A DNA stretch of 59,048 nucleotides. Source: a virus. The notes beneath the pieces are model-generated. The model worked only from the letters and a program-made list of their open reading frames with translations. It was not told the origin of the DNA and made no database searches. The stretch covers positions 1 through 59,048 of IMG/VR virus record IMGVR_UViG_3300036845_000232. One strand, given 5' to 3'. Position numbers and translations under genes: made by a program. Of this stretch, positions 1,915-59,048 are shown piece after piece. The number at the start of each line of letters is the position of its first letter. The stretch's first letter is position 1.

Positions 1915-2613
1915 TCATGGCATGTACGCCGTCATGATTGCCCGCCCGATGACTGTGGCCATTGCCGGAGGGTTGGCATCTCCAATTGCCTCGACGGCAG
2001 CATTTCGGTCCAACCAACCGGAAATCCCATTAGCCACTCGCAAACCTCGGGGTGGACCCGCATACCAAGGGTTTCCGGCAGCGGCTGCCCGCGCGACTCG
2101 GTCAATCTCTTGTGGGACGGCTTGCCAGGAGACCGATAGTCTCGCGAGACAGGGGTGGGCAAGAAGGAACACTCGCCGGCGGATATGAGGCGCACCAAGA
2201 TCGCAAGCCGCGAACTCAGCTCGGGCGCAGTGGAAGCCAGCTTGCGCCAAATCTCGCGTGACTTCGGCTTCCCACGCCGCATTTCCCGGCGGCTGCTCCA
2301 CGACAAACCATTTTGCTCGGGAGTTGAGCCCGATGCGGAGCATGTCGGGCCACAGGCTATCCCCGGTTCGCCGTCCATGGATCGCAGCACTAACGCTCGT
2401 GCGCTGGCAGGGAGGACCACCAAAGACGATATCGCACTCAGCGCGCTCAAAAGTGCGGACGTCGTCATGCAGGGGGATGCCGGGATAGTAGTGCGCGATG
2501 AGCCGCTGGCGTTGCGGCTTGATCTCGACGAACTGGACGGTTCGGAATCCGCCAGCGGCGTCGAGTCCGAGCGCATGGCCGCCGATGTTGCTGAAGAGGT
2601 CAAGGACTTTCAT
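1915..2613 (-). CDS. C5-cytosine DNA methyltransferase, 232 aa
   Basis: The protein has motif I (DLFSNIGGHALGLDAAG), the catalytic loop GGPPCQR with the nucleophilic Cys, a degenerate ENV motif (VEQPPG) and the QRRR-like APHIRRRVF motif. It methylates cytosine C5 using S-adenosylmethionine. At 232 aa it is shorter than stand-alone restriction methylases (about 330-400 aa) and has a reduced recognition domain, as in phage orphan enzymes. No restriction partner is adjacent. ATGA overlap with the upstream 55-aa gene supports the start. Likely role: protection of phage DNA. Confidence 0.85.
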   Translation of the reverse strand: MKVLDLFSNIGGHALGLDAAGGFRTVQFVEIKPQRQRLIAHYYPGIPLHDDVRTFERAECDIVFGGPPCQRTSVSAAIHGRRTGDSLWPDMLRIGLNSRAKWFVVEQPPGNAAWEAEVTRDLAQAGFHCARAEFAACDLGAPHIRRRVFLLAHPCLARLSVSWQAVPQEIDRVARAAAAGNPWYAGPPRGLRVANGISGWLDRNAAVEAIGDANPPAMATVIGRAIMTAYMP

Positions 2614-3231: not shown

Positions 3232-3600
3232 TTATCGGCCGTGCACTCGCGCGACCTCTTCCTCGCATTCGGCGTTGTGCTTTCGCGCCTGGTCGGCGGC
3301 CCACAGTCGCGCCTTGTGCTTCTCGACTACCTTCGCAAGCTTTTCCTGCACGCGCATATCGAGCTTGTCGCCCTCGATCCCGAAACACTTGGCGAGCAAT
3401 TCGAGATAGACGCGGATGTCGGCGATCTCGTCCTTGATCTCCTCCGAAAGATCGGCGCCGTCCCGCCAGCGCTTCTTGATCATGTTGGCGAGCTCGCCGG
3501 CCTCGCCACAGAGGGCGAGCGCGAGAAACCGTTCATCCGAATTGGAGTAGGCCGGGAAAAGATGGCCGGTCATGCGCTCATGCAGATCGTAGAGGTTCAT
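3232..3600 (-). CDS. MazG-like nucleotide pyrophosphohydrolase, 122 aa
   Basis: The all-alpha MazG/dUTPase-like fold is suggested by CGEAGELANMIKK followed about 20 residues later by EEIKDEIADIRVYLELLA, which supply the ExxE and ExxD metal ligands. Such enzymes hydrolyse (d)NTPs to NMP and pyrophosphate. Phage versions are thought to adjust nucleotide pools or lower ppGpp. ATG 3600 overlaps the upstream stop as ATGA and has GGAGA before it. Confidence 0.75.
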   Translation of the reverse strand: MNLYDLHERMTGHLFPAYSNSDERFLALALCGEAGELANMIKKRWRDGADLSEEIKDEIADIRVYLELLAKCFGIEGDKLDMRVQEKLAKVVEKHKARLWAADQARKHNAECEEEVARVHGR

Positions 3601-4325: not shown

Positions 4326-4571
4326 TCACGACGTGAGTTCCTTCACGATCCACATCACGGACTGTTCGAGCGACGTCATGGCGAGCGCGTTGTAGCGGCC
4401 CGGCTTGACCTGAGCGAACAGCTCCTCCATCTCCACGGCCTTGCTCTTGAGCGCGTCATGCAGCGCCTTTTCGTCGTCCGTCAGTGCGCGGTAGCGCGGC
4501 CGGAACCGACTGACCGGAATCGCCGTGTCCGCCTGCCGGGCGTCGGGCTTGCCTTCGAATACGTGCGTCAT
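4326..4571 (-). CDS. Acb2/Tad1-like hairpin-domain protein (predicted anti-CBASS/anti-Thoeris sponge), 81 aa
   Basis: After a short N-terminus come RFRPRYRALTDDEKA, a charged helix, then GRYNALAMTSLEQSVMWIV. The paired-helix pattern ending in ALTxLExxVMW is the signature I associate with the Acb2/Tad1 hairpin domain. T4-type Acb2 binds cyclic di- and trinucleotides and blocks CBASS; Tad1 sequesters the gcADPR signal of Thoeris. The length (81 aa) fits. ATG 4571 has GGAG upstream. Assignment is from remembered family pattern; the ligand is unknown. Confidence 0.7.
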   Translation of the reverse strand: MTHVFEGKPDARQADTAIPVSRFRPRYRALTDDEKALHDALKSKAVEMEELFAQVKPGRYNALAMTSLEQSVMWIVKELTS

Positions 4572-4686
4572 TTCTTCTGCTCCATTCGTCTGCTTGATAA
4601 GCTGCTTCCTCACGCGGTACGCCCTTGTGCAGCCAACGCCAAAAGACCTCGTCATAGGTTTTGGGTTTTCTGCGAATATCTGTCAT
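4456..4686 (-). CDS. Hypothetical protein overlapping the Acb2-like gene, 76 aa
   Basis: Residues 1-42 look like a real protein (KTYDEVFWRWLHKGVPREE), and the start overlaps the upstream stop as ATGA. Beyond about residue 40 the frame runs 116 bases into the Acb2-like gene and becomes Arg/Gly/Pro-rich, like a shadow reading. Most neighbours end at a 4-base overlap, so the true end may be near 4570 with a one-base indel in the GAAGAAA stretch. Function unknown. Confidence 0.45.
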   Translation of the reverse strand: MTDIRRKPKTYDEVFWRWLHKGVPREEAAYQADEWSRRNDARIRRQARRPAGGHGDSGQSVPAALPRTDGRRKGAA

Positions 4687-5075
4687 CGCCGCGGCACTTC
4701 GATCATGATGGTTTTATCCTTGAGGTGATCCGGGATGCCGTCGGTTGGCAGCATTGCGGTGAGGCCGCCGCCCTTGCGGATCACGACCGTCTTGCCGATC
4801 TCGGCCTCGATCGCTGCGAGCTTGTCGAGATAGTTCTCCTTAGTCACGCCCTCGATGTTCGTCGGCATGCCGGGGCACTGCGCCGCGATCGTCTTCTGCA
4901 TCTCGCTCCAGAGACCCTTGTCGGCGAAGTGGTGTGTCCAGATCGGGTGACCCATCAGGTATTCGGCCGCCTCGTGCATCTTGGAGAAGTCGCAGAGCAG
5001 CGTGCCGCTCGACAGCGACGCGATTACCGCGGTCGGAAATTCTCTCGTCTCGACGGCCGAACTTACCTTTTCCAT
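4683..5075 (-). CDS. DUF7736-like hypothetical protein, 130 aa
   Basis: The segment FPTAVIASLSSGTLLC followed by EAAEYLMGHPIWTHHF resembles a small domain common in phage and mobile elements that I recall as DUF7736. The C-terminus contains a beta-rich segment ending in IMIEVPRR. ATG 5075 has AGGGGA upstream. It sits just downstream of the AAA+ ATPase gene. No biochemical role is known to me. Confidence 0.6.
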   Translation of the reverse strand: MEKVSSAVETREFPTAVIASLSSGTLLCDFSKMHEAAEYLMGHPIWTHHFADKGLWSEMQKTIAAQCPGMPTNIEGVTKENYLDKLAAIEAEIGKTVVIRKGGGLTAMLPTDGIPDHLKDKTIMIEVPRR

Positions 5076-5110
5076 GTTATTCCCCTGTTTTGATTGATTA
5101 TTTACGATCT

Positions 5111-6120: not shown

Positions 6121-6816
6121 TTATTCCGAGACAGCGGACAAATGTTGAAGCGCGGCGCGCCCGATGAATTCGCCGTAGGCCGGCGGGATTGCTTGCGAGA
6201 GAGCCGCCATCGGCATCCAGTCGATCCCCATCGCCGCTCGAGCGGCGTCAACCGAGAACGTCTGCCGGTCGCGGTTGCGCACGACGTTTTGCTGCGGCGT
6301 GTTGCCGGTGATCGTGATGGTGCGGCGCCGATCGCGGGCGTGCTCGCCGTAAATGCTCACGGTTGCTTTGCCATGCCGGCAGGTCGGGGCCAGGATGATG
6401 AAGCTGGTTTCAAAGTAACGATGGCGCCGGAGCTCGGCACCGCATGGTGTCCGCAGGTCGAACATCGTCCCGCAGAGCCGCAGTGTCGATTTGAGAGGCG
6501 AGCCCGGCACGTTCTCGATCGCGTAGGGAACGCCGCTGGCGCGCAGCAGCTCGCGGGTTTGCGGGATCAGGTCGGCGTGCGGCTTCGCGTTCCACATCTT
6601 TCGCAAGGCCGTGTGGGCCTGACATGGCGGGCTCGCCCAGATGAAATCGAACTGCCGAAGATCGAACGGCGGCCGCAGCGCGTCGGCCTGGACGAACCGG
6701 AACGGATATCGGGGCTGCGGCCGGATATCGACGCCGATCACGTCGAAGCCCGCACGGTGCAGCCCCATCGAGGCGCCGCCGGCGCAACAGAAAAGATCAA
6801 GTGCGAGCGGCTTCAT
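6121..6816 (-). CDS. C5-cytosine DNA methyltransferase (second), 231 aa
   Basis: Motif I DLFCCAGGASMGL, catalytic SPPCQAHT, IENVPGSPL (ENV motif) and ELRRHRYFE (QRRR-like) are all present, more canonical than in the enzyme at 1915-2613. The C-terminal segment SQAIPPAYGEFIG matches the closing motif X region. It is about 231 aa, hence compact. No nuclease partner is adjacent, so it is probably an orphan modification enzyme protecting replicated phage DNA or mimicking host methylation. Confidence 0.88.
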   Translation of the reverse strand: MKPLALDLFCCAGGASMGLHRAGFDVIGVDIRPQPRYPFRFVQADALRPPFDLRQFDFIWASPPCQAHTALRKMWNAKPHADLIPQTRELLRASGVPYAIENVPGSPLKSTLRLCGTMFDLRTPCGAELRRHRYFETSFIILAPTCRHGKATVSIYGEHARDRRRTITITGNTPQQNVVRNRDRQTFSVDAARAAMGIDWMPMAALSQAIPPAYGEFIGRAALQHLSAVSE

Positions 6817-58921: not shown

Positions 58922-59048
58922 TTGCGGCGTCAGCGCTTCAATTCCGTGAGAGCATCGAACGAGTGGCCGTCCAGCAGCTTGTCCATGCCCGCGATCCAGT
59001 CCGGGTGATCGCCGATGCACTCGCCGTCGTGCTGGCGCAGGAACATGA
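58922..59048. repeat. Terminal direct repeat, right copy
   Basis: Identical to bases 1-127. Contains the 3' part (58930-59048) of the minus-strand gene whose full copy is at 9-260. Confidence 0.95.

Follow-up and report, generated by a model that had tools for sequence, protein, structure and literature searches.

A compact Acb2/Tad1 hairpin-family protein encoded by a virus genome, predicted to act as a sponge for cyclic nucleotide signals

An 81-aa protein encoded on the 59,048-base virus contig analysed here (the window, meaning the whole of that stretch) is a new compact member of the known Acb2/Tad1 hairpin family. It is most likely a sponge for the cyclic di- and trinucleotides used as CBASS signals, and is predicted to be oligomeric. 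As an account of all the evidence, we consider it highly probable that this compact hairpin-family protein works as an oligomeric, signal-holding sponge against CBASS-type effectors. The family had been named in an earlier, sequence-only reading, and is supported by the profile match, the predicted fold and the conservation of ligand residues known from Vs.4 of phage T4; taken with the selection acting on the gene and its spread without a fixed neighbour, these results mean that the assignment holds.

Family membership and fold

The 81-aa product proposed in that reading corresponds to a real open reading frame with its stop codon on the minus strand (Table 1). Compared with 17 homologs, the gene has dN/dS values of ~0.05-0.22, with synonymous sites near saturation, and its GC content at codon positions 1, 2 and 3 is 63, 41 and 87%, patterns that together indicate a real gene under strong constraint; it is under strong purifying selection. 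Longer in-frame starts (4613 and 4655) were dismissed because the alignment of homologs begins at the ATG at 4571. Also rejected were the plus-strand reading of the same interval, an unrelated read-through with no homologous protein, and an overlapping 76-aa ORF at 4456-4686, which is matched in homologous loci almost entirely by the gene's own out-of-frame shadow.

Table 1 Coordinates of the features discussed. Positions are those of the window unless a locus (L) or genome and contig (G:C) is given.
Feature	Position	Strand	Evidence
81-aa Acb2/Tad1-hairpin protein gene (proposed nucleotide-signal sponge)	4326..4571	-	PF24729 score, homologs, purifying selection
GGAG Shine-Dalgarno-like site, 8 nt 5' of ATG at 4571	4580..4583	-	sequence
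N-terminal segment, residues 1-26, MxxV[FY]EGxPDxRQ...RFRPx, conserved in clade	4494..4571	-	alignment and model
Acb2_Tad1_hairpin domain, residues 27-77	4341..4493	-	Pfam match
Y27 codon, equivalent to Vs.4 Tyr8 (stacks on cGAMP)	4491..4493	-	alignment
K42 codon, equivalent to Vs.4 Lys23 (contacts cGAMP)	4446..4448	-	alignment
R59 codon, common to PaP2 Acb2 Arg67 and Tad1, without Vs.4 match	4395..4397	-	alignment
T66 codon, equivalent to Vs.4 Thr68 (T68M lowers binding)	4374..4376	-	alignment
K77 codon, equivalent to Vs.4 Arg79 (contacts cGAMP) and aligned with Tad1 Arg/Lys	4341..4343	-	alignment
DNA methyltransferase gene (PHROG 363)	1915-2613	-	
MazG-like nucleotide pyrophosphohydrolase gene	3232-3600	-	
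DUF7736 protein gene	4683-5081	-	
DNA methyltransferase gene (PHROG 363)	6121-6816	-	
127-bp direct terminal repeat	1-127 and 58922-59048		
79-aa hairpin-family ORF	L086:1441-1680 (G140:C35:31932)		
CD-NTase on the same contig as the 79-aa ORF	G140:C35:10591		
~90-aa protein downstream of relatives	L002:4243-4521, L003:933-1205, L004:4243-4515 and seven more loci		
Members with inter-helix insert	L053:4001-4330, L072:10001-10363, L073:10001-10327		

A profile search had been suggested as a check on family membership and was positive: PF24729 (Acb2/Tad1 hairpin) matched at 51.3 bits against a cut-off of 27 (E=1.4e-13, taken as not due to chance). The same profile was matched by 42 of the 42 aligned relatives, and a control search gave 0 matches to the family in 14 control genomes. 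Zero matches to the 81-aa protein were found in NCBIfam, which equally misses the genuine Vs.4, Acb2 and Tad1, and in PADLOC, and the PHROGs matches were to families 1454 and 717, both without a named function. Searched against the PDB as a single sequence, the protein barely reached Acb2 (E=1.5), and a profile of 42 relatives returned Acb2 as the top match at 1e-4, followed by Tad1, 'Acb2 homolog 43' and Vs.4. All 10 sequences found at E<1 by a five-sequence profile, built from the 81-aa protein and four uncharacterised relatives and including no known sponge, were Acb2, Tad1, Vs.4 or 'Acb2 homolog 43'; another profile that included Acb2, Vs.4 and Tad1 matched these strongly by construction, and those matches were left uncounted. 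Aligned with hhalign, 55 residues paired with PaP2 Acb2 at 94.7% probability and 18 with Vs.4 at 69.7%.

The AlphaFold2 monomer is a confident helical hairpin with helices at residues 32-52 and 59-80 and a block-mean pLDDT >90 across the helical core (residues 31-80). The ALAMTSLEQSVMW helix pattern on which the sequence-only reading had relied lies at residues 62-74, and the charged helix that it placed before this pattern is the first helix of the model. Residues 1-26 were modelled with low confidence, mostly without regular structure and with no sheet. Foldseek against the PDB bore out the proposed fold in that ranks 1-18 were all Acb2, CbTad1 or Vs.4 chains (best match: probability 0.99, TM-score 0.59 by query length), with E-values that, at 0.24 and above, were weak owing to the very small size of the hairpin.

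Predicted ligand sites and function

In Vs.4, residues Y8, H11, K23, R79 and F82 contact cGAMP, and the hexamer is held together by L29, A66, A73 and A77 (PMC10097602); the substitution T68M lowers binding (PMC12657230). Acb2 of the PaP2 type is likewise a hexameric sponge (PMC12043709, PMC10419184). In the 81-aa protein, Y27, L30, K42, K77 and T80 align with the five Vs.4 contacts, and A64, S71 and I75 with the interface sites A66, A73 and A77. Nearly all relatives retain Y27, K42 and T66; when Acb2, Vs.4 and Tad1 are also considered, there is no variation at K42, T66 and M73 and almost none at Y27, R59, A64 and W74. The Y27-K42 spacing of 15 residues equals that of Y8-K23 in Vs.4 and Y11-K26 in PaP2 Acb2, and the residues of an Acb2-type dinucleotide pocket are present as a tyrosine (Y27), a lysine (K42) and a basic residue late in the second helix (K77). 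Two Vs.4 residues are not kept, namely the base-stacking aromatic F82 (T80 here), whose change to Ala causes a >25-fold loss in Vs.4, and A77 (I75 here), where A77I is inactive. PaP2 Acb2 has Ala and Ile at these places, so an F82-type aromatic does not define all Acb2.

Acb2 (anti-CBASS 2) is a homohexamer with three dinucleotide sites that blocks CBASS and has cyclic di- and trinucleotides as its ligands. The residue alignments lead, as the best prediction, to a dinucleotide held between two subunits and a trinucleotide at the three-fold axis. The 81-aa protein would assemble into an oligomer, most likely an Acb2-type hexamer, in which two-subunit pockets would hold cyclic dinucleotides via Y27, K42 and K77, and R59 and T66 would bind cyclic trinucleotides, for instance cA3. 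R67 of PaP2 Acb2, the equivalent of R59, we take to lie within the trinucleotide site of Acb2; the assignment of residues to that site rests on alignment. The signal would be kept uncut, and CBASS effectors, or those of a different system with the same signals, would remain silent during phage replication.

The inclusion of gcADPR among the possible signals was the weakest part of the sequence-only interpretation. This ligand is less likely because the N-terminal beta-domain of Tad1, which forms part of the gcADPR pocket, is absent. It is therefore unlikely that the protein is mainly a gcADPR sponge (anti-Thoeris) with a Tad1-like mode of binding, even though its second helix fits the Tad1 motif RExAxAxTxxEExxMW well, its short inter-helix turn is unlike Acb2 and the cationic K77 aligns with a Tad1 Arg/Lys. 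Tad1 proteins are ~123-142 aa long, with a four-stranded N-terminal sheet where the 81-aa protein has 26 mostly unstructured residues before the hairpin, and Y27 and K42 are Acb2 features. An antiparallel beta-sheet domain precedes the two helices in Tad1, and its gcADPR pockets are formed by conserved loops, the C-terminal tail and the helices (PMC12043709).

The N-terminal segment raises the further idea that the main target is a signal new to the Acb2/Tad1 family and that this segment completes the pocket; such a signal might be a cyclic tetranucleotide or a cyclic pyrimidine nucleotide. Its EGxPDxRQ...RFRP pattern is kept across the clade without a counterpart in the aligned sponges, and T4 Acb2 already has an established ligand from beyond CBASS, the nucleotide of Panoptes (PMC12657218). 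The conservation of the known ligand residues argues against a new main target, and we regard this idea as improbable. The same low probability is given to the compact clade being a distinct sponge class, whose N-terminal segment would complete a pocket for a signal or specificity unseen in Acb2 or Tad1.

The preferred reading of the protein as a CBASS-signal sponge was also set against the distribution of CBASS enzymes in two samples of alphaproteobacterial genomes (149 at the family level and 384 at the class level, the seed genome left out). A CD-NTase (SMODS) was encoded by 2/4 and 1/6 of the genomes with a hairpin-family gene, giving a pooled 3/10 versus ~0.75 expected (P ~0.04, ignoring phylogeny and genome size), and the RecT control in the same test gave no overlap. 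This weak co-occurrence above chance fits an anti-CBASS role, but with so few genomes it is suggestive only. In one bacterial contig, a weaker hairpin-family ORF of 79 aa was observed ~21 kb from a CD-NTase.

Genome context and spread of relatives

The contig ends in a perfect 127-bp direct repeat, so it probably represents a whole genome of ~58.9 kb. The plus strand encodes the terminase, portal, major head and head-closure proteins, and the minus strand from ~14.5 kb to 0 encodes a regulator, a PD-(D/E)XK nuclease, RecT, an integrase, two DNA methyltransferases, an AAA ATPase, a DUF7736 protein, the 81-aa protein and a MazG-like protein. This cluster looks like the early or lysogeny side of the genome, and the 'early operon' of the sequence-only reading fits it, in particular the leftward genes for RecT, nuclease, integrase and regulator; in both cases we infer the timing of transcription. 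Comparison of the first 20 kb with the phage collection gave no close relative beyond 72 bp of the regulator gene, and the best portal matches were ~30% identical.

Several neighbours within the cluster are worth recording. The DUF7736 protein is encoded directly upstream of the 81-aa gene, and the flanking DNA methyltransferases possibly serve in anti-restriction. A MazG-like nucleotide pyrophosphohydrolase is encoded in the same cluster, and since the phage MazG-like protein Atd1 is reported to block the TIR-STING pathway of CBASS (PMC10419184), the 81-aa gene may not be the only counter-defence gene of the cluster.

Homologs ~65-88% identical over most of their length were found on ~50 viral contigs (in a scan biased to close relatives), and relatives also occur in contigs of Bradyrhizobium, Phenylobacterium, Gluconobacter, Acetobacter, Siccirubricoccus and Azospirillum genomes, so far placing the family's compact members in phages and prophages of Alphaproteobacteria and in many uncultured phages. 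Few window genes are common to the relatives' loci. Their neighbours include genes for recombination, single-strand binding, terminase, head, tail, endolysin and integrase, and 80 neighbour proteins matched 75 PHROG families, none in more than two. The gene is thus found in many otherwise unrelated phages without a fixed neighbour, a pattern resembling that of accessory counter-defence genes. A ~90-aa protein (GDAPIQQEY...GFVLLVFPFGD...ISNGADRKDVVTLM) is encoded directly 3' of the gene in 10 loci, often with overlapping stop and start; it was considered as a fixed operon partner and rejected, being absent from the window. A few members carry an inter-helix insert of ~30-40 residues at the place of the Acb2 insert. 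A relative is also carried by 'Dunaliella viridis virus SI2' (HQ332136.1), recorded from an alga and classed in Caudoviricetes; given this class and the phage gene, the virus probably infects a bacterium that was present in the algal culture.

Certain homologs are found amid genes for the head or for packaging. In several phages the relatives adjoin terminase, portal and head genes, and that of Sinorhizobium phage Aussie lies between head-completion genes, as might be expected of a small helical protein with a structural, assembly or regulatory role that resembles sponges only by sharing a helical hairpin. A virion or assembly component would keep its partners, however, whereas the neighbours here vary from phage to phage, and PaP2 Acb2 itself adjoins a capsid gene. 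With sequence similarity that is sponge-specific in the five-sequence profile search, and with the ligand residues kept, we consider this reading very unlikely. If instead the protein binds as predicted for a CBASS-signal sponge, anti-CBASS sponges would extend to a widespread single-gene cassette of Alphaproteobacteria phages and uncultured communities.

Comparison with known sponges

Among characterised proteins, Acb2 of Pseudomonas phages PaP2/PaMx33 (p26; PDB 8h2j, 8h2x, 8ixz) belongs to the same hairpin family and is the best fold match. The likeness runs through the first helix (YR.LS.EE......K) and a GR...A.T region in the second; equivalents of PaP2 Y11, K26, R67 and T74 are present, and the sizes are similar (93 versus 81 aa), though identity is low at 26%. 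The 24-residue inter-helix insert of PaP2 Acb2 is absent from the 81-aa protein, whose N-terminal segment is longer and conserved, and the C-terminus has an MW motif and KELTS in place of MA..RAIAQPDSF. The short inter-helix turn and the conserved N-terminal segment separate the protein from Acb2. Similarly, Vs.4 (T4 Acb2; PDB 7uq2) shares equivalents of Y8, T12, K23, A66, T68 and W76 at 19% identity, but the 81-aa protein has lysine in place of R79, retains neither F82 nor A77, carries an R59 without a Vs.4 counterpart and lacks the long inter-helix region.

Tad1 of Bacillus phage SBSphiJ7 and of a Clostridium botulinum prophage (PDB 7uav, 8kbb-8kbh, 8smd) has the second-helix motif R..A.A.T.lEeavMW..K in common with the 81-aa protein, which is ~40-60 residues shorter and lacks the N-terminal beta-sheet domain. 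If the prediction is true, the protein would represent a minimal 81-aa scaffold in which first-helix residues resembling those of Acb2 are combined with a second helix resembling that of Tad1, and would be useful for finding which part sets the ligand. Similar in size is 'Acb2 homolog 43' (PDB 9ptq, 76 aa, six chains), which also matches in the second helix in profile searches. The same compact architecture is found in the 76-78 aa proteins of Sinorhizobium phage Aussie, Caudoviricetes sp. ctCJ8213 and 'Dunaliella viridis virus SI2', which are annotated as hypothetical, are 33-46% identical by tblastn and match PF24729 at 65-68 bits.
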